Below are positions 16,165 through 33,328 of a stretch of DNA of 43,666 bases, one piece after another (positions within the stretch are counted from its first letter, which is position 1; each line of letters begins with the position of its first letter). The notes under the pieces are model-generated. The model searched no databases. It saw only the letters and a list, made by a program, of their open reading frames with translations, and was not told the origin of the DNA. A program made the translations under genes and the position numbers. Location of the stretch: contig NZ_CAMLAC010000006.1 of NCBI RefSeq assembly GCF_946477935.1, positions 1 through 43,666 on the forward strand. Direction: 5' to 3'. The stretch comes from an uncultured Sphingomonas sp. (lineage in GTDB: Bacteria; Pseudomonadota; Alphaproteobacteria; Sphingomonadales; Sphingomonadaceae).

Positions 16165-16506
16165 TTGACTATGCAAATTGCGCCTATGAACCATTCAGCG
16201 ATGATCGAGGGTGGGTGCCTCTGTGGAGCTTTCGGGTCATTGGTGTCTTGGCTGCTATTCAACGGCTTTCATGCTCTATGCCATCCATGTTGCTCGGAAG
16301 GCGGTGAAAGGTCGGCACGCAACTTCAGCCGCAAGCGGCTGGCGACCTATCTTACCTCGATCAACGCACGACCGGAGCGCTATCTGGCCGAGCCGCAACA
16401 GATCGACCGCGGCGACACCGTGGATCCAATAAGACTGTCGCCGGACGACGTTACAAGCAGTTGGCCAATGCCGCCAATGTGTTCGCATTGGTGGTCGTCA
16501 CGTTGA
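16165..16506 (+). CDS. Unrecognised ORF, perhaps a fragment
   Basis: 113 codons, overlapping the convergent regulator gene by 56 bp. The start reads MNHSAMIEGGCLCGAFGS; the GGCLCGA motif recalls the first zinc site of GFA-type (glutathione-dependent formaldehyde-activating) proteins, but the rest does not follow that family. Later residues (RKRLATYLTSINARPERYLA) look protein-like but unfamiliar. It may be a decayed gene or a chance ORF. Confidence 0.22.
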   Translation: MTMQIAPMNHSAMIEGGCLCGAFGSLVSWLLFNGFHALCHPCCSEGGERSARNFSRKRLATYLTSINARPERYLAEPQQIDRGDTVDPIRLSPDDVTSSWPMPPMCSHWWSSR

Positions 16507-17884
16507 AGCGCATGTACGACCGAAGATCCGCGTAGCGCGTGAAGTGGACGGCCGGTGCCGTCAGGTAGGTTCGCGCCAGCATCCGGGTCGCGACCTCGGT
16601 CGCGTCAATGCCGTCGCCCAGCGAACCCCACAGGAACAGCCCGCCTGCAGGCGGCACCGCGAACGGGAGGCCAATGTCTGTGATCGTGCGACGCAGCCCC
16701 ATCGAGCAGCGGGCCAGATGGGCGCGCACGCGGTCGCAACGGCGGCGGTAGAGTCCTTCGTGCAGGAAACGGTACAGCAGGCGTTCCTGGATGATGGTAT
16801 TGCCCAGGCCCTGGATCGGGCGGAAGTACCGGATGAATTGCATCCGGCTCTCGTCGGCGACGACAAAGCCGGGCGCTACCGCCGGTGCGATCGTATGTGA
16901 GAAACCGCCGACGTGGATGACGCGCCGCAACCCGCCGAACCGCATCAGCGGTGCCGCCGCGTACGTTCCCGGTCCCGTGGGCAGCAAATCGGCGTAGCTC
17001 GCATCGTCGACCAGCAGCAGGTCGAACTCGGCGGCGATCTCGAGAAGCTTGTGGACTTTATGCGGCGCGATGCTCGTGCCTGTAGGGTTGTGCAAGACCG
17101 AGCTCAGCAGGAACAGGTACGGACGATGCCGTTCGCACAGCGTCCGGAGCGCTTCAAGGTCCGGTCCGTCCGCCTGGCGCGGGACGCCAATGCCGCTAGC
17201 CCCCTGCGCCATCAGCACCTGCAGGTGGATGAACGAGCAAGGACGTTCGTACAGCACGCTGGTCCCCGGCCGCAGCAGGGCGCGGATCACGAGGCTCAGA
17301 CCGGCGACGGCGCCGGGCGTGGTGACGAGCTGATCGAGCGGCACCTCGATCCCCTCGCCCTTCAATTTGTCGCACAACGCCTGCCGCAGCGGCAGGTAGC
17401 CCAGCGGATTACCATAGGTACCGTCGGAGCCGATCGCAGCGGTGACCGCGCGCGCCACCTTGGCGACCTCCGCCTGCGCGCTCTCCTCGTGGCGGAGGAT
17501 GCCGCTACCCGGCGTCCGGTCGAGCGGGTGGTCGGAATGGATCAGCCGAGACGGGTCCAGCGGGGGAAGAACCGCGGGCGTGGTGATGGGGCGATCGGCC
17601 GGTGTCGCCTCGCGCACGTAGAAGCCCGCTCCGCGCACCGCATAGGCCTGGCCGTTCGCGATCAGCTTGTCATAGGCGCGGACGATCGTGTCGCGGCTAA
17701 CCCGGTGCCGCGCCGACATCGTCCGTACCGACGGCAGGCGCTGGCCGGGGAGCAGGACGCCGGCGTCGATCTCCTCGACGACCCCGCGATAGATGCGTTC
17801 CATGATCGTCATGTCCGCAGGCGCGTCAGCGGCTGCCCTGGTCATGTTCGAACTGTCATGGTCGTCCGGGTGGGCCAGGCTCAT
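16451..17884 (-). CDS. MocR-like regulator (GntR HTH + aminotransferase domain) lacking the PLP lysine
   Basis: 477 aa. A winged-helix GntR domain occupies about 25-92 (GQRLPSVRTMSARHRVSRDTI). A class-I aminotransferase-like domain follows at 125-477 with HNPTG (Asn266), LVDDASYADL (Asp293/294) and a C-terminal MRFNV arginine (Arg459). In active fold members the next motif is S-K-T, its Lys forming the Schiff base with PLP. Here it reads GGFSHTIAPA, with His330 in that place (codons TCA CAT). The protein therefore should not hold PLP covalently and may sense another ligand. It is divergently transcribed from the peptide-uptake operon, with 290 bp between starts, as expected for its local regulator. 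MocR proteins commonly control neighbouring divergent genes. Confidence 0.88.
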   Translation of the reverse strand: MSLAHPDDHDSSNMTRAAADAPADMTIMERIYRGVVEEIDAGVLLPGQRLPSVRTMSARHRVSRDTIVRAYDKLIANGQAYAVRGAGFYVREATPADRPITTPAVLPPLDPSRLIHSDHPLDRTPGSGILRHEESAQAEVAKVARAVTAAIGSDGTYGNPLGYLPLRQALCDKLKGEGIEVPLDQLVTTPGAVAGLSLVIRALLRPGTSVLYERPCSFIHLQVLMAQGASGIGVPRQADGPDLEALRTLCERHRPYLFLLSSVLHNPTGTSIAPHKVHKLLEIAAEFDLLLVDDASYADLLPTGPGTYAAAPLMRFGGLRRVIHVGGFSHTIAPAVAPGFVVADESRMQFIRYFRPIQGLGNTIIQERLLYRFLHEGLYRRRCDRVRAHLARCSMGLRRTITDIGLPFAVPPAGGLFLWGSLGDGIDATEVATRMLARTYLTAPAVHFTRYADLRSYMRFNVTTTNANTLAALANCL

Positions 17885-18174: not shown

Positions 18175-20523
18175 ATGACGATACGTCGTACCATCGCAAT
18201 CCGGCTTGTAGCGACGAGCATCGTCGGCATTGGTGCCGTGACCCTGCCCTGCGTCGCCAGCGCGCAGCAGCGAAGCCTGTCGCAGCCGGCGATGCCGCTC
18301 GGAGAGGCGCTGGAGCGGATCGCCAAAGAGTTCGGCAAGCCACTCGATATCGATCCGAATGCGGTAGACGGCGTGACTGCCAACCCGGTGGTCGACGCCC
18401 ACAGCGAGAAAGACGCCGTGCGGCAGGCCACCCGGGGCCTGCCGGTGGCGATGCAGATGACTCAGGACGGCCGGATCGGCATCTACAACGACATCGTCGT
18501 GGTGGCCCAGCGCGACGAGGCGGAAACCAGCGTGCTGGTGCGCCGGGCCAGCACCTCGTCGCGGCTCGGCCAGTCGCTGCGCGACCAGCCGCGCAACACG
18601 CAGGTCATCTCCTCCAAGCTGATCGAGGAACAGCAGGCGCTGACGATCTCCGAGGCGCTGGCGAATGCCGGCGGCGTCACCATCGCCACGACCCCGCAAG
18701 GAGGAAACGCGTTCTCGGTGCGCGGCTTCGGGGCGAACGGCTCGATCAACGGCATGCCTTCCACGTCGAACAACAACTTTAACGCCGGCACTATCCAGCC
18801 GCTCGGCAACATCGAGCGGATCGAGGTGCTGAAGGGCCCCGACGCGATCCTGACCGGCGGCGACAACATGGGCGGCAACATCAACATCGTCACCAAGAAG
18901 CCCAGCGCCACCGAGCGGCTGTACGCCACGGCCGAAACCGGCTCGTTCGGGCTGATCCGTGGTACGATCGACGCCAATCGGGCGCTGACCGACGATGGTC
19001 GCCTCTCCGCGCGCGTCATCGCCACAGGCCAAGACATGGACCGTAATTTTGGTGGCTATCGCGGCACCGAGGAGTATCTGTTCGCACCGTCGATCCGCTA
19101 CAAGAACGCGGATACTGACATCATCCTGTCCACCACCCAAGCCCTGCAACGGGTCGGCGAGCCTCCCTATACGCTGCTTAACCTGGCGACGGGCAAGCCG
19201 GTCGAGATCGATCGCAGCAAGCCGTTCTTCGGCGGGCCGGATCAGGGCATCCGGGTCGGCACCAGCCAGTTCAACATCGACGCGACGCAGAAACTGACCG
19301 ACTGGCTGACGGTCGTCGCCCGCGGTCAACATTCGGAACAGAGCTTCGCGCTTCGGGGGTACTCCCCGGTCACCGGCGTGGACGCCGCGGGCATCTTTTC
19401 CTACCTGACAGCCGGTGGAAACCAACGGGCGAATACCGACTCCATCGACGCGTTCGCGCGCGTCAACTTCAAAACCGGCATCTTCGAGCACAAGATCGTT
19501 GCCGGCTACACCTATGTGGATACGCAGACGAACAGCACCAGCGCGACCGGGGGCCAGTTCGCGCCCTACGACACCCGCAACCCGGCGAAGACGCCGATAC
19601 GAGCGCTCAACGACAGGTTCGTCCCCTCGGTTTCGGTCGCCAGCGAGCAGCGCGGCTATTACGGCCAGTACCTGCTGAACTTCTCACGGTACCATCTGCT
19701 TGTCGGCTTGCGGAAGACCCCCGTGGCTGTCGAGACGATCGTCGACGGCGCATTCACCCGCGACGGAAAGCCGTCCATATCGAACGAGAAGACGTCCCCG
19801 CTGTCTCCCAATTATGGCGCGGTGATCGACCTGAGTGACAACTTGTCGGTATTCGGCTCGCTCGCCTACGGCTTCGCGCCCAACTACCAGTTGGGTGTCG
19901 ACCGGCAGAAGCTGCCGGACCGGACCAGCCGCAACGCCGAGACCGGGATCAAATGGGACCTGTTCGACGAGCGCATGCTGGTCACCGCATCCTACTTCAG
20001 CATCCGGGAGATCAATGGCGTCGAAATCCTCCCACGCGTGCCGGGGGCGCCGGCCCAGCCGCGCTTCTACCGATCGGTGCCGGGTCGCCTTGCTCAAGGC
20101 GTCGACATCAACCTGAGCGGCGAGCCGATCCGGGGATTGTCGCTGATCGCGGCGTTCACGCGTACAGACTATGACCTGCTGTACGTCACGGCGGCCAGCA
20201 AGGTCGTCAACAACCTGCCCCGCGACATGTACAATTTCTACGCGTCCTACACGCGTCCCGTCGCCGACGACGTAAAGCTGGGGCTCGGCGCCGGTGTACA
20301 AGGACGGTCGGGCGCGTTCGTCGACCGGCTCGGGCTCTACAGGCTGGGGCCCGCGGTGCAGGCGAACCTCAACGGGATCCTGACGGTCGGCAAGTTCGAC
20401 ATCAATCTGAGCATCCGCAACGTCTTCGACCGGGACAATTACGGGACCAGCATCGATCCGTCCTACATTCCGCTCGGCGAACCGCGCAGCTTCCGGCTGT
20501 CGGTCGGCTACCGGTTCCGCTGA
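18175..20523 (+). CDS. TonB-dependent receptor with N-terminal STN domain
   Basis: 782 aa. Signal peptide to about VASAQ, STN (secretin/TonB short N-terminal) domain at about 35-105 (MPLGEALERIAKEFGKPLDI, GLPVAMQMTQDGRIGIYND), TonB-box-like DIVVVAQRDE, plug at about 130-240 with RIEVLKGPDAILTGGDNMGG, then a barrel ending in FRLSVGYRFR. GAGAGGGG lies 8 nt before the ATG. Plug and barrel look like siderophore-type receptors. STN domains in FecA-like receptors signal to an anti-sigma factor, yet no fecI/fecR pair lies here, so the domain may serve a distant pair or have lost that role. It is the first gene of the operon and 22 bp from the transporter gene. Confidence 0.92.
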   Translation: MTIRRTIAIRLVATSIVGIGAVTLPCVASAQQRSLSQPAMPLGEALERIAKEFGKPLDIDPNAVDGVTANPVVDAHSEKDAVRQATRGLPVAMQMTQDGRIGIYNDIVVVAQRDEAETSVLVRRASTSSRLGQSLRDQPRNTQVISSKLIEEQQALTISEALANAGGVTIATTPQGGNAFSVRGFGANGSINGMPSTSNNNFNAGTIQPLGNIERIEVLKGPDAILTGGDNMGGNINIVTKKPSATERLYATAETGSFGLIRGTIDANRALTDDGRLSARVIATGQDMDRNFGGYRGTEEYLFAPSIRYKNADTDIILSTTQALQRVGEPPYTLLNLATGKPVEIDRSKPFFGGPDQGIRVGTSQFNIDATQKLTDWLTVVARGQHSEQSFALRGYSPVTGVDAAGIFSYLTAGGNQRANTDSIDAFARVNFKTGIFEHKIVAGYTYVDTQTNSTSATGGQFAPYDTRNPAKTPIRALNDRFVPSVSVASEQRGYYGQYLLNFSRYHLLVGLRKTPVAVETIVDGAFTRDGKPSISNEKTSPLSPNYGAVIDLSDNLSVFGSLAYGFAPNYQLGVDRQKLPDRTSRNAETGIKWDLFDERMLVTASYFSIREINGVEILPRVPGAPAQPRFYRSVPGRLAQGVDINLSGEPIRGLSLIAAFTRTDYDLLYVTAASKVVNNLPRDMYNFYASYTRPVADDVKLGLGAGVQGRSGAFVDRLGLYRLGPAVQANLNGILTVGKFDINLSIRNVFDRDNYGTSIDPSYIPLGEPRSFRLSVGYRFR

Positions 20524-20545: not shown

Positions 20546-22348
20546 GTGCTTCCACAACCCACGAAGACAGGCGAGGTCCTTCGCGAGAAGGGCCTCGCCC
20601 CGCCCCAGCCGGCGGGGCCGCGCTTTCGCCACGCGTGGCGTCTCATCAGTGCCTATTGGCGATCCGAACACTGGAAGTTCGCCTGGTTCGCGCTGATCCT
20701 GCTCGTCGTCTTTCAGTTCACCGAGGCATATTTCCTTCTTGCCATCAACCGCTGGCAGAAGAGCTTCTTCGACAGCGTCCAGCAGAGCAACGCCGCGCAG
20801 TTCGGGTCGCTGGTGCTGCTGTTCGTCGGCATCACGGCCGCGCAGGTGACCGTGTACCTGTTCGCGCGGGTGCTGCGGCAGGTCCTGTCGATCCGCTGGC
20901 GCGCCTTCCTCACCGAACGCTACGTCGATCGCTGGATGAGCCGCAACCGCTATACGGAGATCGAGCGGCTGCGGCTGATCGACAATCCCGACCAGCGCAT
21001 CCACGAGGACATCAACCGGCTGACCGACATGGACGGCTCGACGACGGGGTCGACCAGCCCGGTCGCGATCGCGCTCGACATCATGGGAACGGCCGCCACG
21101 GCGGTGGCGATGATCTACGTCCTGCTGGAGACTGCGGAGGCGATCCGCTTCTCGCTGTTCGGCTGGCAGGTTTCGATCCCGGGCAGCACGGTCTGGTACG
21201 CCGCGCTGTATGCGCTGGTCACCAGCGTGCTGATCGCGTTTCTCGGTCGTCCGTTCATCCGTGCGCAGATGCGCCAGCAGCACCGCGAGGCGGATTTCCG
21301 TGCCGGCCTGATCCACGTCCGCCGCAACGCCCCGCAGATCGGGCTGGCCGGCGCGCTGCCGATCGAGCGCAGCGCGCTGCGCGACGCCTTTGCCGTGCTG
21401 AAGCGCAACTTCTACTCGGTCATCATCACCAGGACCGGGATCACCGCCGCGCAGCAGATTTTCCAACGGATCGGCGGCTTCCTGCCGCTGTTCCTGCTGG
21501 TGCCGCGCTTCTTCGCGGGCAGCATCAGCTTCGGGCAGGTGATGGCCGGGCGCGATGCGTTTGAGCGGCTGGCCTCCAACCTTTCGGTATTCGTGATGTA
21601 CTACCAGACGATCGCCGAGCAGATCAGCTACATCAACCGTCTGAAGGGGTTGGACGACGCAATCGACGACGCGCGGCCGCAGGGCATATCCATCGGGGCC
21701 GGGGCACTGACGGGGGCGGCGATCGTCACCGGCGGGCTGCTGCTGCGCAAGCCCAACGGCGAGCCGCTGGCAGAGGTAGGCGACTGGACGGTGCGCCCCG
21801 GCGAGCGCTGGGCGGTGCGCGGCTCGTCCGGGGCGGGCAAGTCGACGCTGGTGCGCGCGCTCGCCGGCCTGTGGCCCGACGGCGCCGGCAGCGTCACGAT
21901 CGCGCCCGACACCCACACCATGTTCGTGCCGCAGCGCCTGTACCTGCCGCTCGGCACGCTGAAGGCCGGGCTGTGCTTTCCCGACCATCCCGACACGCAC
22001 GAGGATGCGGCGATCGTCGCGCTGCTGGAGCGGGTACGGCTCGGCCATCTTGCGCCCGACCTTCATGCCGAGCGGATGTGGCAGGAGGAATTGTCGCCGG
22101 GCGAGCAGCAGCGGGTGGCGCTGGTCCGCATCCTTCTCCAGCGCCCGAACCTGCTGGTGCTGGACGAGGCGACCAGCGCGCTCGACCCGGACAATGCGCG
22201 CCATTTCTACGCCTCGATCGGCGAGGCGATGCCCGATGCGACGATCCTCAGCGTCGTCCACGACGAGGCGCTGCTGACGTATCACACCCATATTCTGACT
22301 ATCGTCGACGGGCGGGCTAAGGCAGATCGGCTCGGAGACGAGGCATGA
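20546..22348 (+). CDS. SbmA/BacA-like ABC transporter with fused ATPase (YddA/Rv1819c type)
   Basis: 600 aa, GTG start after AAGGCGAG. An ABC_membrane_2 (SbmA/BacA, ABCD) domain spans about 30-360, with family motifs INRWQKSFFD, RWRAFLTERYVDRWM and NPDQRIHEDI. The ATPase follows: Walker A GSSGAGKST (426-434), signature LSPGEQQ (516-522), Walker B LLVLDE (536-541) and switch His572. SbmA and BacA import peptides such as microcin B17 and bleomycin; the ATPase-fused relative Rv1819c imports hydrophilic compounds. Context with a receptor and peptidases favours peptide import. Its stop overlaps the next ATG (ATGA). Confidence 0.9.
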   Translation: MLPQPTKTGEVLREKGLAPPQPAGPRFRHAWRLISAYWRSEHWKFAWFALILLVVFQFTEAYFLLAINRWQKSFFDSVQQSNAAQFGSLVLLFVGITAAQVTVYLFARVLRQVLSIRWRAFLTERYVDRWMSRNRYTEIERLRLIDNPDQRIHEDINRLTDMDGSTTGSTSPVAIALDIMGTAATAVAMIYVLLETAEAIRFSLFGWQVSIPGSTVWYAALYALVTSVLIAFLGRPFIRAQMRQQHREADFRAGLIHVRRNAPQIGLAGALPIERSALRDAFAVLKRNFYSVIITRTGITAAQQIFQRIGGFLPLFLLVPRFFAGSISFGQVMAGRDAFERLASNLSVFVMYYQTIAEQISYINRLKGLDDAIDDARPQGISIGAGALTGAAIVTGGLLLRKPNGEPLAEVGDWTVRPGERWAVRGSSGAGKSTLVRALAGLWPDGAGSVTIAPDTHTMFVPQRLYLPLGTLKAGLCFPDHPDTHEDAAIVALLERVRLGHLAPDLHAERMWQEELSPGEQQRVALVRILLQRPNLLVLDEATSALDPDNARHFYASIGEAMPDATILSVVHDEALLTYHTHILTIVDGRAKADRLGDEA

Positions 22349-23706
22349 GCGTATCGGGAAGCGCCCTGCGGCTAAGCGAAGCTGACCTGACGGACGCCGC
22401 GCAGTCGGCGGTCGCGGCGGCGGTCGCAGCAGGCGCCGACGGAGCCAGCGCGACCGCGCGCACCGATGGCGGCATCCGCGTGACGGTGCGCGACGGCGGC
22501 GTCGACACGGCGGTGCGCAATCTCACCCAGTCGCTTGGCATCACCGTGTTCCGCGATGGGCGCGCCGGCTCGGCGAGCACCGCCGCGCTCGATCCCGAGT
22601 CGATCCGGCGCACCGTCGCCGAGGCGACGACGATCGCCGCGGCGGTGCAGCCCGATCCCGATGCCGGCTTGCCGGACCCTGCCTGGCTCGCCTTCGACGG
22701 CCCGCAGCCGCCGCTCGCCGCACCGTCGGACCGACCGCTGCGCGCACTGATCCACCTCGCGCTCGCCGCCGCGCAAGCGGTGACGGACGCCCCGCCCGGG
22801 CAACGCGCGCGGCTGGACGAGGCCGGCATCTGGGTGAACGAAGCGCGCTCGGCGCTGGCGACGTCTGCCGGCTTGTGCCGGTCGTGGCACGCCACCGACC
22901 ACGCGCTGTGGACGATGGTTCTGGCACAGGGCGCTGCGGGGGAAAGCGTCCGCGACTTCGTGCAGTCGAGCGAGCGGCGGTTCGACGCCCTCGAGGCGCC
23001 CGACGCAATCGCCGCCCGGGCGGTGGCACGAACGATCGAGCAGCTGGGCGGGCGCTCGATCCCCAGCCGGCGCGGGGCGGTGCTGTTCGACGCGCGGGTG
23101 GCGTCGGCGATCGTGTCGGACGTCGTCGCGGCCCTGGCGGGCGGCGCGCAGGTCCGCAAGGCGAGCGTGCTGCTGGATTCGATCGGCCGGGCGGTCGCGC
23201 CCGCTCATATCGACCTGACCGAAGACCCGTTCGAACCCTATGGCCTCGCCAGCGGCGGCTTCGACCCCGAGGGGATCGCGGGCAGCGCGCGGCCGGTGAT
23301 CGAAGGCGGCGTGGTGCGGGGCTATTTCCTCGGCAGCGTCGCCGCGCGCAAGCTCGGGCTGCGTCCGACCGGCAACGCCGGCGGCGCGTGGAACCTGCGC
23401 TTTGCCAACCGCGATGACGGGAGCGACGCCGCGGCGATGCGGCGGCGGCTGGGCACCGGTCTCGTGGTGACGCACCTCAACGGCGGCGGCACCGATCCGG
23501 TTCGGGGCACGTGGACGCGTGCCGTGTCGGGCCTGTGGGTCGAGGGCGGCGAGGTGATCCACGCCGTTACCGACGTGACGGTGGCGGGCAATCTCGCCGA
23601 CATGCTCGGGAATATCGTGGCGATCGGCGGCGACGTGTTCCGGGATGGCGCGATCCGCAGCGGATCGATCCTGATCGACGACATGCAGATCGGAGGTACG
23701 GCATGA
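22345..23706 (+). CDS. pmbA-like: TldE/PmbA-family subunit of a TldD/E protease
   Basis: 453 aa. The C-terminal half carries PmbA/TldE hallmarks: FEPYGLASGGFDPEG, GTGLVVTHLNGGG, TRAVSGLWVEGGE and GNLADMLGNIVAIGGDV, ending SILIDDMQIGG. TldE lacks the zinc motif and pairs with TldD to form the active enzyme that clips unfolded or modified peptides, including microcin B17 leader. It overlaps both neighbours by 4 bp, so stoichiometric synthesis with TldD is likely. The N-terminus is divergent and Ala-rich. This looks like a specialised pair rather than the housekeeping one, judged only from its operon. Confidence 0.9.
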   Translation: MSVSGSALRLSEADLTDAAQSAVAAAVAAGADGASATARTDGGIRVTVRDGGVDTAVRNLTQSLGITVFRDGRAGSASTAALDPESIRRTVAEATTIAAAVQPDPDAGLPDPAWLAFDGPQPPLAAPSDRPLRALIHLALAAAQAVTDAPPGQRARLDEAGIWVNEARSALATSAGLCRSWHATDHALWTMVLAQGAAGESVRDFVQSSERRFDALEAPDAIAARAVARTIEQLGGRSIPSRRGAVLFDARVASAIVSDVVAALAGGAQVRKASVLLDSIGRAVAPAHIDLTEDPFEPYGLASGGFDPEGIAGSARPVIEGGVVRGYFLGSVAARKLGLRPTGNAGGAWNLRFANRDDGSDAAAMRRRLGTGLVVTHLNGGGTDPVRGTWTRAVSGLWVEGGEVIHAVTDVTVAGNLADMLGNIVAIGGDVFRDGAIRSGSILIDDMQIGGTA

Positions 23707-25169
23707 GCACGCTCCCCGCCACCGCACTGAATACCGCCGAGGCGCGGCTGCTGGCCACCAGCGGCCTGACCCGCGACGATCTGTCGCGGACGCTGAGCGT
23801 GCTGTGGCGGCGTGGCACCGACCTAGCCGACCTGTTCTTCGAGGATACGCGCGCGCGGAGCTGGCGGCTGCAGGACGGCCGCGTCTCGGCGGGCTCGTTC
23901 CGGATCGGGCGCGGCGTCGGCGCGCGCGCGGCGGCGGGTGCCGATATCGCCTTCGCCCATTCCGCCGACCTCGGCCGCGCCGCGCTCGCCGACCTCGCCG
24001 ACACCGTCGCCGCGCTCGGGCGCCGGCCGGGTGGCGATCAGGCGGACGTGGCGTTGGACATGGACGGTCCTGTCCATGCACTCTACGCGCCGGCGGAGAC
24101 GACCGGCGCGACGGACGCCGCGGCATGGATCGCGCTGCTGGAGCAGGTCGACGCCGCCGCGCGCGCTGCCGATCCGCGCATCGTGCGGGTCGACGGCATG
24201 GTCCGCGCGATCGACCAGATCGTCCTCGTCGCCGATATCGACGGCCGCATCGCCGCCGACGTGCGGCCCACCGCGCAGGTGATGATGAGCGTCCTCGCCG
24301 AGGCCAACGGCCGCCGGGCGTCGGGCAACGCCGGCCTGGGCGGACGCTTCGGGCTGGAGGGCTTCACTGCGCCGCGCGTCGTCGACATGGTGAAGCGGGC
24401 GGTGCGTGCTGCAACCACCAATCTCGACGCACGCCCCGCCCCCGCCGGACGAATGCCGGTGGTGCTCGCGCCCGGCTATGCCGGCGTGCTGTTCCACGAG
24501 GCGGTCGGGCATGGGCTGGAAGGCGACCATCATCGCAAGCGCCAGTCGGCGTTCGACGGACGGATGGGCGAGCGGATCGCCGCACCGGGCGTGACGGTGA
24601 TCGACGACGGCTCGTTGCCGGGGCTGCGCGGCTCGCTCGGCATCGACGACGAGGGCGTGGCGGGGCAGCGCACGGTGCTGGTAGAGGACGGCATCCTGAC
24701 CGGGCTGCTCCAAGACCGGCTCAATGCGGGGCTGATGAACGCGCGCCCGACCGGCAACGGCCGCCGCCAGTCCTATGCGCACCTGCCGATGCCGCGGATG
24801 ACCAACACTTTCCTAGCGCCGGGCCGCGACGATCCGGCCGAGATACTCGCCTCGGTGAAGAACGGCATCTACGCGATTGGCTTCGGCGGCGGACAGGTCG
24901 ACATCGTTACCGGCCGCTTCAACTTCTCGACCACCGAGGCGTGGCTGATCGAGGACGGCCGCCTGACCGCGCCGATCGACGGCGCGACGCTGATCGGCGT
25001 CGGGCACGAAGCGCTGAAGAACATCTCGATGGTCGGCGGCGATCTCGGCCTCGACGAGGGCGAGGCGCTCTGCGTCAAGCAGGGCCAGCAGCTCGACGTC
25101 GGGGTTGGCCAGCCGACGATCCGGATCGACGACATGATGGTCGGCGGTCGCGCCGGCCGACAGGGATAG
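23703..25169 (+). CDS. tldD-like: TldD-family zinc metalloprotease subunit
   Basis: 488 aa from the ATG overlapping the pmbA stop; the track start at 23511 lies inside pmbA. The active-site motif HEAVGHGLEGD is at 265-275 (HExxxH), and the extra zinc ligand is probably Cys457 in ALCVKQGQQ. NFSTTEAWLIEDG, GGDLGLDEG and GVGQPTIRIDDMMVGG complete the family pattern. It is the catalytic partner of the preceding TldE-like subunit. TldD/E digests peptides threaded through its chamber and is known for processing RiPP precursors (microcin B17) and degrading CcdA. Expected in the cytoplasm, where imported peptides arrive. Confidence 0.92.
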   Translation: MSTLPATALNTAEARLLATSGLTRDDLSRTLSVLWRRGTDLADLFFEDTRARSWRLQDGRVSAGSFRIGRGVGARAAAGADIAFAHSADLGRAALADLADTVAALGRRPGGDQADVALDMDGPVHALYAPAETTGATDAAAWIALLEQVDAAARAADPRIVRVDGMVRAIDQIVLVADIDGRIAADVRPTAQVMMSVLAEANGRRASGNAGLGGRFGLEGFTAPRVVDMVKRAVRAATTNLDARPAPAGRMPVVLAPGYAGVLFHEAVGHGLEGDHHRKRQSAFDGRMGERIAAPGVTVIDDGSLPGLRGSLGIDDEGVAGQRTVLVEDGILTGLLQDRLNAGLMNARPTGNGRRQSYAHLPMPRMTNTFLAPGRDDPAEILASVKNGIYAIGFGGGQVDIVTGRFNFSTTEAWLIEDGRLTAPIDGATLIGVGHEALKNISMVGGDLGLDEGEALCVKQGQQLDVGVGQPTIRIDDMMVGGRAGRQG

Positions 25170-25177
25170 GAGCATTC

Positions 25178-25501
25178 ATGGCAAAGGTAGCGAATATCAC
25201 CGCGGCGGAGTTCGACACGGAAGTGGCCGGCCGCAAGGGGCTGGTGCTGGTCGACCTGTGGGGGCCCAATTGCGCGCCGTGCCGCGCGCTCGCGCCGATC
25301 CTCGACGATCTGGCGGAGGATTTCGGAGGCGAGGTGGCCATCTGCAAGATAGACGTCGAGGCGGAACAGGACATGATGGTGCGGCTGGGCGCGAGGGCGA
25401 TGCCGACGCTGGCGCTGTTTCACGACGGTACGGAGGTCGACCGGATCGTCGGCATCTGCACCCGCTCGCGACTGACGGCGTGGCTGGAAAGTCATCTGTG
25501 A
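25178..25501 (+). CDS. Thioredoxin-like protein with NCAPC active site
   Basis: 107 aa, no signal peptide, so cytosolic. Thioredoxin fold motifs: LVLVDLWGPNCAPCRALAP with a CAPC redox pair, and cis-proline in RAMPTLALF. The usual WCGPC is changed to NCAPC: the Trp before the first Cys is Asn and the Gly is Ala, which should shift redox potential or partner choice. It starts 8 bp after tldD and its stop overlaps the next gene's GTG. In this operon it could reduce disulfides of an imported peptide or keep TldD's cysteine ligand reduced; both are inferences. Confidence 0.85.
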   Translation: MAKVANITAAEFDTEVAGRKGLVLVDLWGPNCAPCRALAPILDDLAEDFGGEVAICKIDVEAEQDMMVRLGARAMPTLALFHDGTEVDRIVGICTRSRLTAWLESHL

Positions 25502-26319
25502 CGACGGCTTTCCACGGCGATCCCTGGATCAAGTCGGACCTGCACGCGCGGCTGCGGCGCCACGCCGCCGCGGGCACGCTGGTGTTCGGCGCCACACGGT
25601 GGGACGGCGTCAGCGGCAGTCCTCTAGGCGTCTCGGCCGAGAGCGACGACTGCGCCGATTATGCGGCACGGTTCGGCTATCCGCTGGCACTCACCCCCCT
25701 GCTCGACATGATGACCGCCTACATCGCGCCCGAACGCGCGTTGGCCGACACGCTGGCGTGGGTCGAAACCGTGTCGCCCGGTGCCGACCTGTCCTGGGTA
25801 CCGCTCGGGATCGCCGAGGAGATGTTGGTGCGAATGGGCGCTGCCGACCATGCGCCGTCCCGTCATGCGGCCGTGCTGGACCTGCAGCGCCGCGACATGG
25901 CCGGTGAGACGATTACCCGTGCCGACTGGACCGCGCTGCGGCGCGAGATGGAAGCCGCGACGGATGATGCCCATGGTCCCGAGGCGGTCGCGCTGCGGGC
26001 CTGCGCCATGGCCTGTTGGCCGCTACGGACCAGCCGCTCGGTCGTGGCGAGCCTCGTCCAGATGTGGCAGACGGGCGCGCCGCCTTCCCCCGACTTCAGT
26101 GTGGCGGACAGGATCCAGGCGGAGGAGACGCTGCACGCGATCATCGCCGAGATGCGGCCACGGCGCGAGGATATCCCGGGGCTGTTCCGCGATCGCGACC
26201 CAGATCTGTCGAGACGCTACGAAGCCGAGTTGCGGCGCGTCAACCTGATCGCCGAGCAACGCATCGCCGCATTGCCGCCCCTCATCCTTCACCACCTCGC
26301 CGCGGCGGGCACCCCCTGA
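25498..26319 (+). CDS. Unrecognised 273-aa protein of the peptide operon
   Basis: I recognise no family. The GTG at 25498 overlaps the thioredoxin stop (GTGA) and gives VTTAFHGDPWIKSDLHARLR; the longer track ORF begins inside thioredoxin in another frame. The protein is soluble, about 273 aa, with no signal or TM segment. It has an N-terminal stretch rich in His, Asp and Trp (FHGDPWIKSDLH, ATRWDGVSG), then mostly helical sequence and a charged C-terminal helix (YEAELRRVNLIAEQRIAAL). Position between thioredoxin and the M3 peptidase in a packed operon implies a role in the same pathway, as an enzyme or an adaptor. Function unknown. Confidence 0.8.
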   Translation: MTTAFHGDPWIKSDLHARLRRHAAAGTLVFGATRWDGVSGSPLGVSAESDDCADYAARFGYPLALTPLLDMMTAYIAPERALADTLAWVETVSPGADLSWVPLGIAEEMLVRMGAADHAPSRHAAVLDLQRRDMAGETITRADWTALRREMEAATDDAHGPEAVALRACAMACWPLRTSRSVVASLVQMWQTGAPPSPDFSVADRIQAEETLHAIIAEMRPRREDIPGLFRDRDPDLSRRYEAELRRVNLIAEQRIAALPPLILHHLAAAGTP

Positions 26320-26356: not shown

Positions 26357-28381
26357 ATGACCGACACCCTGCGCGATCCCACGCAGCTCCCCCCCTTCGC
26401 GGCGTTCACGCCCGACGTGATCGGACCGGCGCTGGAGACCGCGCTCGCCGGGCATGAGGCGACGGTGGCGCAGCTCACCGCGACGCGGCCGACCAGCTTC
26501 GCCGATGCATGGATGCCGCTGGAGCGCAGCGGCAACGCGCTCGACGCACTGTGGACGGCGGTATCGCACCTCCAGGCAGTAGCGGACACGCCCGCGCTGC
26601 GCGAAGCGCACCGGGAAGGTCAGGCGCGGCTGATCGAGACGATGACGCGCATCGGCCAGAACCGCGATCTCCACGACCTCTATGCCGCGCTGACCGCGCA
26701 CCCCGAGTTCGCCGGCCTGCCGCAGGCGGACCGAGTCGCGGTGGAACGCGCGGTGCGCAACTTCACCCTCTCCGGCGTCGCGCTGGGACCGGAGGCGAAG
26801 GCGCGGTTCGCCGAAATCTCGGTCGAGCTGTCGAGCCTGTCGAACGCCTTCTCCAGCGCGGTCCTCGATGCGACCGACGCCTGGATCGAGCACGTCACCA
26901 ACGACGCCCTGCTCGCCGGCCTCTCCGATACCGACAAGGCGATGTTCGCCGCCGCGGCGCAGGCGCGCGGGCTGGACGGCTGGGTGGTGACGCTCCAGCA
27001 GCCGAGCGTCACCGCGATCCTCACCTTCGCCGAGGACCGCGGGTTGCGCGAGCGCGTCTATACCGCATACGGTACCCGCGCGTCGGACCAGGGGCCGCAT
27101 GCCGGCCGGTTCGACAACAGCGAGCGGATTGCGCGCATCCTGGCGCTGCGCCGAGAAGCGGCCGCGCTGCTCGGCTTCGCCAACCCGGTTGAGCGCTCGC
27201 TCGCCACCAAAATGGCCGCCAGCGCCGGCGAGGTGCTCACCTTCCTGCGCGACCTGGCGCGCCGCGCACGGCCGTTCGGCGAGCGCGAGGTCACGGCGGT
27301 GCGCGACTTCGCCGCGGCCAAGCTCGGCATCGCCGACCCCCAGCCCTGGGACATCGCCTTCGCCTCCAACCGCCTGCGAACCGCGCACCACGCGATCGAC
27401 GAGGCGGAGATTCGCGCCTATTTTCCGGTCGAGCGGGTAATGCAGGGTTGGCATGCGCTGGTCGAGCGCCTGTACGGCACCCGCTTCGTGGCGCGCGACG
27501 ACGTCGCGGTCTGGCATCCCGACGCGCGCTATTTCGATGCGGTCGACACCGACGGCACGGTGTTCGCCGGCCTCTATCTCGACCTCCACGCCCGCGCCGG
27601 GAAGCGCGGCGGCGCCTGGATGGACGAGGCCCGCCCCCGCCTTAACGACGGCAACGTTCGGCAGGTACCGGTCGCCTATATGGTGTGCAACTTCGCGCCG
27701 AAGAGCGAGGGCGCGCCGGCGCTTTTGTCGCATCGCGAGGTCGTGACGCTGCTCCACGAGACCGGCCACTGCCTCCACCACCTCTTCACCTGCGTCGACC
27801 GGCCGAGCATCGCCGGGATCAACGGCGTCGAATGGGACGCGGTCGAACTGCCGAGCCAGCTGATGGAGGATTTCGCCTGGGACCGCGCGGTGCTGACCGG
27901 CATGTCGGGGGATCACCGGACCGGCGCGCCGCTGCCGCCCGAATTGTTCGAGAGGATGGTGGCCGCGCGCCATTTCCAGTCGGGCATGGGGCTGCTCAGG
28001 CAGATCGAATATGCGATGTTCGATCTCATCCTCCATCTCGGCACGATGGGTGACGATCCGATGGAGGTGCTCGAGGCGGTGCGCGACGAAGTGGCGGTGG
28101 TCCGGCCGCCCGAATGGCATCGCTTCCCCCACGCCTTCAGCCACATCTTCGCCGGCGGCTATGCCTCGGGTTACTACAGCTACCTATGGGCTGAAGTGCT
28201 GGCTGCGGACGGTTTCAGCCGTTTCGCCGAGGCCGGTCTCGTCGACCGCGCCACCGGGAACGCCTTCCGCGCCGAGGTGCTTGCGCGTGGCGCCACCCGC
28301 TCTGCAGGCGAGAGCTTCCGTGCCTTCCGTGGCCGCGATGCCGAACTCACCGCGCTGCTCGTTCGCCATGGACTGGTCTGA
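26357..28381 (+). CDS. M3-family oligopeptidase (OpdA/Dcp type)
   Basis: 674 aa, cytosolic, start preceded by AAGGA. Zinc motif HETGH at 467-471 with the third ligand probably Glu497 in DAVELPSQLME. FAGGYASGYYSYLWAEVL is the conserved substrate-domain motif of oligopeptidase A and dipeptidyl carboxypeptidase, and the length is typical. These enzymes cut short peptides that fit in a closed channel. It ends the seven-gene operon, 37 bp after the unrecognised gene, and fits final breakdown of fragments released by TldD/E. Confidence 0.92.
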   Translation: MTDTLRDPTQLPPFAAFTPDVIGPALETALAGHEATVAQLTATRPTSFADAWMPLERSGNALDALWTAVSHLQAVADTPALREAHREGQARLIETMTRIGQNRDLHDLYAALTAHPEFAGLPQADRVAVERAVRNFTLSGVALGPEAKARFAEISVELSSLSNAFSSAVLDATDAWIEHVTNDALLAGLSDTDKAMFAAAAQARGLDGWVVTLQQPSVTAILTFAEDRGLRERVYTAYGTRASDQGPHAGRFDNSERIARILALRREAAALLGFANPVERSLATKMAASAGEVLTFLRDLARRARPFGEREVTAVRDFAAAKLGIADPQPWDIAFASNRLRTAHHAIDEAEIRAYFPVERVMQGWHALVERLYGTRFVARDDVAVWHPDARYFDAVDTDGTVFAGLYLDLHARAGKRGGAWMDEARPRLNDGNVRQVPVAYMVCNFAPKSEGAPALLSHREVVTLLHETGHCLHHLFTCVDRPSIAGINGVEWDAVELPSQLMEDFAWDRAVLTGMSGDHRTGAPLPPELFERMVAARHFQSGMGLLRQIEYAMFDLILHLGTMGDDPMEVLEAVRDEVAVVRPPEWHRFPHAFSHIFAGGYASGYYSYLWAEVLAADGFSRFAEAGLVDRATGNAFRAEVLARGATRSAGESFRAFRGRDAELTALLVRHGLV

Positions 28382-31263: not shown

Positions 31264-33153
31264 TCAATAGGCCAGCGCACAGCCGTCGGCACGCATCTCG
31301 CTCGCTGCGGCATAGACGCGGGTCGCGCCGTCCATGCGATGCTCCACGCATTCGTAGCGGCCGAAACCGCCGTCGGGCTCGCCGATCGCCCACCCGATTT
31401 CAGCAAGCCGCTGCCGCGTCGCCATCGGCACGCCAGTCTCCAGCCGCAGCAGGCCACGTGGGCCCAGTCCGGCCGCGTCCTCTCCCATCGACTGCGACGA
31501 GCCCTCATGGTGCCAGCGCGGCGCATCGCCCGCAGACTGGACTTCAAGACCATAGTCGACCCGGTTGACGATGATCTGCGTCTGCCCTTGCGGCTGCATA
31601 TCCCCGCCCATCACGCCGAAGCTCATCCACGGATCGCCCCCACGTGTGGCGAAGCCGGGAATGATCGTCTGAAACGGTCGCTTGCCCGGCGCATAGATAT
31701 TGGGATGGCCATCCTTCAGGCTGAACAACTGCCCGCGATCCTGGAACATGAAGCCCAGCCCGTCAGCGACCAGCCCCGACCCCATGCCGCGGAAGTTTGA
31801 CTGGATCATCGACACCATCATGCCGTCCTTGTCGGCACAGCTGAAATAGGTCGTGTCGCCGTGGCTGGGCGCCTGCCCCGGATAAACGGGATCGAGGATG
31901 CGATCTGGTCGAATCAGCTTCGCACGCTGCCGGGCGTATTCCTTCGAGATAAGCCATTCGACCGGCACCTTGGTAAAATGCGGGTCGGCGTAGAAACGCG
32001 CGCGGTCTTCGTACGCGAGCCGCTTCGCCTCCGCTTGAAGATGGATCGACAATGGCGATTGGAAGCCTGCATCGCCCAAATCGAACGTCTCAAGGATGTT
32101 GAGCATCTGGAGCGTAGCGATGCCCTGCGTGTTCGCGCCCAGCGCATGCACATCCACCCCGCGATAGCCCGTCTGGTGCGGTTCGACCCATTCCGCGCGG
32201 TGGGCGGCAAGATCCTCGAACCGAAGCCAGCCTCCGATACGCTTGAAGTAGCGATCGATGACACGCGCGATGTCGCCAGCGTAGAACGCGTCTCGGCCGC
32301 CCTCCGCGATCGCACGATAGGTGCGTGCGAGGTCGGGATTGCGGAACACCTGGCCCGTTGCAGGCCCCTTGCTGTCGGCGAGTCCGTACGTCCGCAGCGC
32401 ATTCGCCGTCTCTTCGATGCCGTTGCCTGGTCGGCGGAACGCGGCCATGCTGCGTCGGATGTAATAGGCGATGATGTCGGGCACGGGCGCTCCCACCTCG
32501 GCATAGGTAATCGCCGGTTCGAACAGCTGCGCCCAAGGCAGCCGGCCATAGCGTTGGTGCATCGTCCACCACGCATCGACTGCCCCCGGTACCGACACGG
32601 TCACCGCGCCCAGCGGTGGCAAGGCACCGCCCCGCGCCCGCGACCGTACCGTCTCTAGGTTGAGGCCCTGCGGCGACGCACCCGATCCCGCCAGCCCGAC
32701 GACCTTGCGCTGCTTCGGATCCCAGATCATCGCATAGGCATCGCCGCCAATACCGCTGGAGGTTGGCTCCAGGAAACCGAGGCAGGCGTTGATCGCGATG
32801 GCGGCATCCACAGCCGACCCGCCCTGCCGCAGGATGTCGATGCCGGCCTGGGTCGCCAGTGGATGGGCCGTACCCACAGCCCCGTTGAGCCCATATGCCG
32901 CCGTGCGGGACGCGAAGCTCGCTCCGACCGGCCGATCGCCGGCGGTGACGTCGGGGCGCAAAAAGCGATCGGCACCCGCCTCCCAACGTTTCGGGAGCGA
33001 TTGCATCGCCGGCTGAGGCGCGCCGCCCTGCCCTGGCCCTGGCGCACCCTGCCCACCGGATACCCGCGTGCTCGCTTGCTGTGGTTCCGCGAGAACCGAA
33101 CCGGGCAAAAGCGCCGCACCCGGCACGGCGGCAAGAAAAGTTCGACGACGCAT
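31264..33153 (-). CDS. ggt: Gamma-glutamyltransferase (periplasmic GGT)
   Basis: 629 aa from MRRRTFLAAVPGAALLPG, with GGGGAG upstream; the longer track start lacks support. The signal looks Tat-like (RRRTF). GGT motifs: AAIAINACLGFLEPTSSGIGG and the autocleavage site GDTTYFSCADKDG, where Thr434 should become the N-terminal nucleophile of the small subunit; FRGMGSGLVADGLGFMFQDRG follows. GGTs remove or transfer the gamma-glutamyl group of glutathione and other gamma-glutamyl compounds in the periplasm. A Gly/Pro/Gln-rich linker (~25 residues) follows the signal. Cephalosporin acylase-like activity is possible within the family. Confidence 0.92.
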   Translation of the reverse strand: MRRRTFLAAVPGAALLPGSVLAEPQQASTRVSGGQGAPGPGQGGAPQPAMQSLPKRWEAGADRFLRPDVTAGDRPVGASFASRTAAYGLNGAVGTAHPLATQAGIDILRQGGSAVDAAIAINACLGFLEPTSSGIGGDAYAMIWDPKQRKVVGLAGSGASPQGLNLETVRSRARGGALPPLGAVTVSVPGAVDAWWTMHQRYGRLPWAQLFEPAITYAEVGAPVPDIIAYYIRRSMAAFRRPGNGIEETANALRTYGLADSKGPATGQVFRNPDLARTYRAIAEGGRDAFYAGDIARVIDRYFKRIGGWLRFEDLAAHRAEWVEPHQTGYRGVDVHALGANTQGIATLQMLNILETFDLGDAGFQSPLSIHLQAEAKRLAYEDRARFYADPHFTKVPVEWLISKEYARQRAKLIRPDRILDPVYPGQAPSHGDTTYFSCADKDGMMVSMIQSNFRGMGSGLVADGLGFMFQDRGQLFSLKDGHPNIYAPGKRPFQTIIPGFATRGGDPWMSFGVMGGDMQPQGQTQIIVNRVDYGLEVQSAGDAPRWHHEGSSQSMGEDAAGLGPRGLLRLETGVPMATRQRLAEIGWAIGEPDGGFGRYECVEHRMDGATRVYAAASEMRADGCALAY

Positions 33154-33328
33154 GATGGCTACTCCCCGGTGCTGGTGCGCATCCTCACCAAGGTGCCGGA
33201 CAAGTACAAGGTGTATCCACGTGTTTCGGGGCTGCAGCTCAGTCAGCGCGCCTGCTCTGCCACGTCCGCGCTCGGATCGTCGTCCCAGATGCCAATCACA
33301 CTCGAATGGCAACGAAATTGGTAGGCCT

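Follow-up and report, generated by a model that had tools for sequence, protein, structure and literature searches.

An Unnamed, Predicted All-Helical Protein Family Genetically Linked to a Dedicated Thioredoxin in Putative Peptide-Import Islands of Sphingomonas

What is the role of a 273-residue protein (here termed X) that is encoded between a thioredoxin and an M3 peptidase in an uncultured Sphingomonas sp.? The window analyzed, i.e., the whole stretch of 43,666 nucleotides from contig NZ_CAMLAC010000006.1, contains the following cluster around the X gene:

16451-17884, minus strand: MocR-type regulator (GntR plus aminotransferase fold), divergent from the receptor gene and kept in the clusters of the closest relatives
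18175-20523, plus strand: TonB-dependent outer-membrane receptor (TIGR01783 at 229.4 bits, above the cut-off of 223.5; PF00593/PF07715)
20546-22348, plus strand: SbmA/BacA-like membrane domain fused with an ABC ATPase (PF06472, PF05992, PF00005), an inner-membrane peptide transporter
22345-23706, plus strand: TldE/PmbA-like partner (Pfam, NCBIfam)
23511-25169 (longest open reading frame), plus strand: TldD-like metallopeptidase (profile 494.7 bits, cut-off 513)
25178-25501, plus strand: dedicated thioredoxin, CxxC motif CAPC (Pfam Thioredoxin, 1.1e-23), adjoining X
25498-26319, plus strand: X, GTG start, the all-helical protein of this study
26357-28381, plus strand: M3 oligopeptidase A-like peptidase (PF01432, 412.7 bits; NCBIfam oligopeptidase A, 707.6 bits, below the cut-off of 927)

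The domain match of TldD starts at about residue 73, so that its true start is probably near 23700; the longest open reading frame shares about 195 nt with the TldE gene. Beyond the operon, 3 kb downstream, is a gamma-glutamyltransferase-like gene (31264-33312, minus strand; 336 bits, cut-off 358), which could be relevant to a substrate with gamma-glutamyl bonds, such as glutathione or phytochelatins.

As a first-pass annotation of the sequence had described, the GTG start of X overlaps the stop codon of the 107-residue thioredoxin by 4 nt (GTGA) and the M3 peptidase follows, with 37 nt between the X stop and the M3 start. Nearly all readable thioredoxin-X junctions in the relatives also show a start/stop overlap, mostly of 4 nt or 1 nt, and X is probably translationally coupled to the thioredoxin. 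The ratio dN/dS was 0.13-0.29 among X relatives; together with the existence of relatives at 38-52% identity and a GC content of 0.85 at the third codon position in the window, this establishes that X is a real gene. No membrane or hydrophobic segment was predicted in X, the maximum 19-residue hydropathy being 1.08.

Searches of Pfam, NCBIfam, PHROGs and PDB sequences gave no usable match to X. Weak, scattered matches to DUF1582 (0.13) and DUF2267 (0.0045, one member), obtained in scans of X and 25 relatives (Pfam, PHROGs) or of X (NCBIfam), were rejected as chance. The earlier statement that no family could be assigned thus holds for Pfam, NCBIfam and PDB sequences, but X is not an orphan: it belongs to a family without a name, with relatives in Sphingomonas, Novosphingobium, Methylobacterium, Azospirillum and a Burkholderiales metagenome-assembled genome (MAG).

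Relatives detectable by BLAST were found in 27 of 295 genomes of the genus, and all but one, at a decayed MAG locus, sit in the same kind of cluster. These islands encode a TonB receptor, an SbmA-like ABC transporter, a thioredoxin and peptidases, often with a thioredoxin reductase (TrxB) and a Cds1-like cysteine desulfhydrase, and the recurring order is receptor, SbmA/ABC, (TldE-TldD), thioredoxin, X, (TrxB), M3. In clade A (38-52% identity) the order is M16, receptor, SbmA/ABC, thioredoxin, X, (M3), mostly without TldD/E. Clade B shows about 25-27% identity overall and 31-38% where the alignment is best; its order is receptor, SbmA/ABC, TldE, TldD, thioredoxin, X, (TrxB), (M3), (Cds1-like), with a LysR-type gene upstream. 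The cluster in the window is a mixture, having the MocR regulator of clade A and the TldD/E pair of clade B; it has no TrxB between X and M3, and no M16 peptidase adjoining the receptor, with TldD/E and M3 instead. A third group (L055, L056, L057, L059, L120, L150) has a short X lacking the N-terminal ~80-100 residues, in clusters that are otherwise intact. In these short-X clusters the adjoining thioredoxin has an odd N-terminus, and both proteins may have changed together.

Three Sphingomonas clusters (L123-L125) carry X-type genes both before and after the thioredoxin, with tight junctions. These were too distant for BLAST, but the X profile recognized them, giving E values of ~1e-10 for the post-thioredoxin copies and 2e-6 to 0.02 for the pre-thioredoxin ones; shuffled and reversed controls failed to match. 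When the same profile was run over the class (385 genomes, about one per genus), the window alone was found; either members are rare beyond these islands, or this loose first look missed some. Two loci show irregularities. At the MAG locus L051 (8950-10296), TldD is reduced to its final ~70 codons, the thioredoxin is damaged and X is shortened, so that the cluster is either decaying or misassembled. In L121 (7916-8485), the X reading frame stays open into the beginning of an S9-peptidase-like sequence; this may reflect a fusion or a sequencing error and was given no weight, because the frames break nearby.

To what within these islands is X tied? Using the SbmA-like ABC protein as query, we searched the genus and inspected each of the 37 places found. 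The thioredoxin and an X-family gene occurred together at 34 of them and were both missing at the other three (L118, L119, L122), neither ever being present alone (naive Fisher test, p = 1.3e-4, which ignores shared ancestry). The same association was seen beyond the genus, in Novosphingobium, on a Methylobacterium plasmid, in Azospirillum and in the Burkholderiales MAG. Azospirillum has one island in which three X-type genes occur among several thioredoxins, two of these genes coming directly after a thioredoxin, and a second island with one short X; the Burkholderiales MAG has two X genes. The expectation that X is expressed with the pathway fits these results, the linkage to the cluster being very strong, above all to the thioredoxin. 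Membership of X in the putative peptide-import system is well supported, and from the genetic linkage we infer that X contacts the thioredoxin.

As the principal alternative, X might couple to or gate the SbmA-like ABC transporter (or TldD/E) from the cytosol, and the thioredoxin would merely happen to be the next gene. X does adjoin the transporter in Methylobacterium and in the Burkholderiales MAG, and on the Methylobacterium plasmid it lies between receptor and transporter, with the thioredoxin after the transporter, an arrangement that counts against a role at the thioredoxin step. In a mirror-tree analysis X also evolved in step with the transporter and the receptor: its partial r was 0.36 with the thioredoxin, 0.36 with the receptor and 0.29 with the transporter, values that agree with a thioredoxin partner but do not single it out. 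However, L118 and L119 have a close SbmA/ABC orthologue with neither thioredoxin nor X, clade A keeps X without TldD/E, and a thioredoxin directly adjoining X is far commoner. We consider a transporter partner unlikely, although it is the likeliest of the alternatives.

The CxxC motif is kept in the thioredoxins of essentially all clusters, and TrxB matches its NCBIfam model at 384 against a cut-off of 343. Cds1-like genes adjoin ~17 clusters, often directly after M3 (e.g., L044:8049-9125, L058:7766-8845, L121:4965-6020), and suggest that cysteine is a product of the pathway; the two tested matched NF052478 at 547-558 bits, below the cut-off of 600. The peptidases differ between clusters (TldD/E, M3, M16, S8, S9). 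Taken together, the kept CxxC, TrxB, the Cds1-like genes and the varied peptidases fit a pathway in which peptides that contain cysteine are imported, reduced and digested. A peptide, probably one that has disulfides or cysteine, would enter the cytosol by way of the TonB receptor and the SbmA-like ABC transporter, to be reduced there by the dedicated thioredoxin, recharged by TrxB where this is encoded, and then degraded by TldD/E, M3 or other peptidases. In many clusters the Cds1-like enzyme would convert freed cysteine to sulfide and pyruvate. X itself may be a scaffold or client-presenting partner, holding the imported peptide and/or docking the thioredoxin onto it. Our leading interpretation, to which we give somewhat less than an even chance, is that X is a cytosolic, non-enzymatic, all-helical accessory at the thioredoxin step of an island for peptide import and digestion. 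The possibility of a substrate adaptor, raised in the first-pass annotation, fits the cluster linkage and survives. As a conserved operon gene X is ordinary; as an uncharacterized family tied to a thioredoxin in a peptide-import island it is unusual.

SbmA/BacA peptide transporters and TldD/E serve in the uptake and maturation of microcin B17. The window has the same membrane-domain family and the same peptidase pair, but its transporter is fused with an ATPase, it is linked with a TonB receptor, a thioredoxin and X, and no precursor peptide was seen. The nearest described systems are the protease-associated import systems (ferredoxin uptake, or Fus, and Ydd/PqqL), in which a TonB receptor is paired with an M16 protease (PLoS Genet 2019, PMC6793856). 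As in Fus, a TonB receptor, a dedicated protease (M16 in clade A, cf. FusC/PqqL) and an inner-membrane transporter are clustered in the islands; M16 stands beside the receptor in clade A, whereas TldD/E and M3 are the peptidases of the window. The SbmA-like ABC protein, the cytosolic thioredoxin/TrxB, TldD/E and X distinguish the X islands, and the main text of PMC6793856 makes no mention of thioredoxin, SbmA or Sphingomonas. The likeness to the mycobacterial L-cysteine desulfhydrase Cds1 lies in the NF052478 match of cluster neighbors, which is below cut-off and gives a predicted activity; a Cds1-like gene was sought in the window and not found. In the open-access papers searched we found no description of an SbmA-TldD-thioredoxin-TonB cluster, although one may already exist in the subscription literature, nor of such a reduction step before digestion in bacterial peptide piracy. 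If our reading is right, the islands represent a reduction-coupled form of protease-associated import, and Sphingomonas, Novosphingobium, Methylobacterium and Azospirillum may be among the bacteria that use cystine-containing peptides, of plant or competitor origin, to obtain sulfur or nitrogen. X would also be a marker for finding such islands.

Might the island instead make and export a modified peptide, with X as a biosynthetic accessory such as a precursor chaperone? The part played by TldD/E in microcin B17 maturation and a transporter with its own ATPase are both in keeping with this. Against it, no conserved short precursor reading frame was present within 1.5 kb upstream of the receptor at 22 loci, where the conserved gene was a LysR-type regulator, and M16, S8, S9 and M3 peptidases, TrxB and Cds1 suit digestion better. 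Export is in our judgment quite improbable.

Returning to X as an accessory of the thioredoxin step, an AlphaFold2 model built with 25 relatives was all-helical, with 15 helices (mean pLDDT 94.7, pTM 0.89). The structure prediction and fold search proposed earlier gave a confident helical model with no PDB fold match below an E value of 0.2. A search of BFVD gave a single significant match, A0A6J5QCR4, an uncharacterized Caudovirales protein (E = 1.9e-4, probability 1.00). Strictly conserved in the 25 relatives were M1, G60, P62, G95, R141, W144 and W174, of which G60, P62, G95, W144 and W174 are structural positions; R148 is also among the conserved positions.

Could X be an enzyme of new fold, whether peptidase, amidase or hydrolase, with the imported peptide as its substrate? 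This is suggested by its peptidase operon, by the lack of a known fold and by the conserved Trp and Arg residues. Yet no conserved catalytic set of Ser, Cys, His, Asp or Glu was present across the 25 relatives, and neither Pfam, NCBIfam nor PDB (sequence and fold) gave a significant match. The first-pass annotation had placed a possible active site in the His/Asp/Trp-rich N-terminus, but many orthologues have G, T, R or Q in place of His6, and the N-terminal ~80-100 residues are absent from some orthologues in intact clusters. An enzymatic role is therefore very unlikely. X resembles a helical helper more than an enzyme. It is best read as a non-catalytic cytosolic protein that partners the dedicated thioredoxin or receives an imported cystine-containing peptide.

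The viral match of the X model is consistent with a second set of relatives. As a lead probe we used a consensus of an Ala-rich family with a GC-x-VGC motif; the claim made here rests on the real database members found with it. The probe matched plasmid-borne X proteins of clade B (E = 5e-17) as well as real Xanthomonas phage proteins. For alignment with X, N-terminal parts of real members only were used, to exclude the Ala-rich tail. In hhalign, X and this Ala-rich GC-x-VGC phage family aligned over the N-terminal ~140-150 residues (probability 98-99%, E ~1e-14 to 1e-17), and in hmmsearch the X profile found phage members down to E = 1.2e-11 (Z = 100000). The phage family, when modeled (pLDDT 79), shows a helix order matching that of X up to residue ~157 and has the same single BFVD match, A0A6J5QCR4 (E = 1.3e-7, probability 1.00). 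The helix pattern and the shared match argue for a common predicted N-terminal fold. The following segments can be distinguished in X:

residues 1-150: homologous, by profile and model, to the unnamed Ala-rich phage family
residues ~60-230: core that X has in common with the most distant cluster relatives

Outside the N-terminal ~150 residues, the phage/prophage family (e.g., phiXaf18_37, QFR59591.1, of Xanthomonas phages) has a long Ala-rich C-terminal helical tail with A-A-x-S-type repeats, where X has ordinary helices. Both GC-x-VGC cysteines are invariant in 12 phage members but replaced in X, although L053, L054 and the Methylobacterium X keep the second alone. The phage relatives lie near a VapE-type gene and do not adjoin a thioredoxin, which counts against our thioredoxin-step reading.

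Homology with the Ala-rich phage family might also mean that X is a domesticated phage-type protein acting as a regulator or sensor with no direct role in peptide processing, but X matches no DNA-binding family in Pfam or NCBIfam, is duplicated beside thioredoxins in distant lineages and is lost along with the thioredoxin, making this the least likely of the alternatives. The accessory reading can be taken one step further: X and the thioredoxin might form a receiving complex on the cytosolic side of TonB/SbmA-type import, in which X, through a domain common to phages, would capture the disulfide-bonded peptide and present it to the thioredoxin before digestion. This bolder version we regard as doubtful. 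If the import reading is right, X would for the first time place this otherwise uncharacterized phage protein domain in a cellular setting. In L061 (4001-4855), the phage relative phiXaf18_37 comes after the VapE-type gene; in phiXaf18_37 the GC-x-VGC cysteines and a conserved His suggest metal or redox chemistry.
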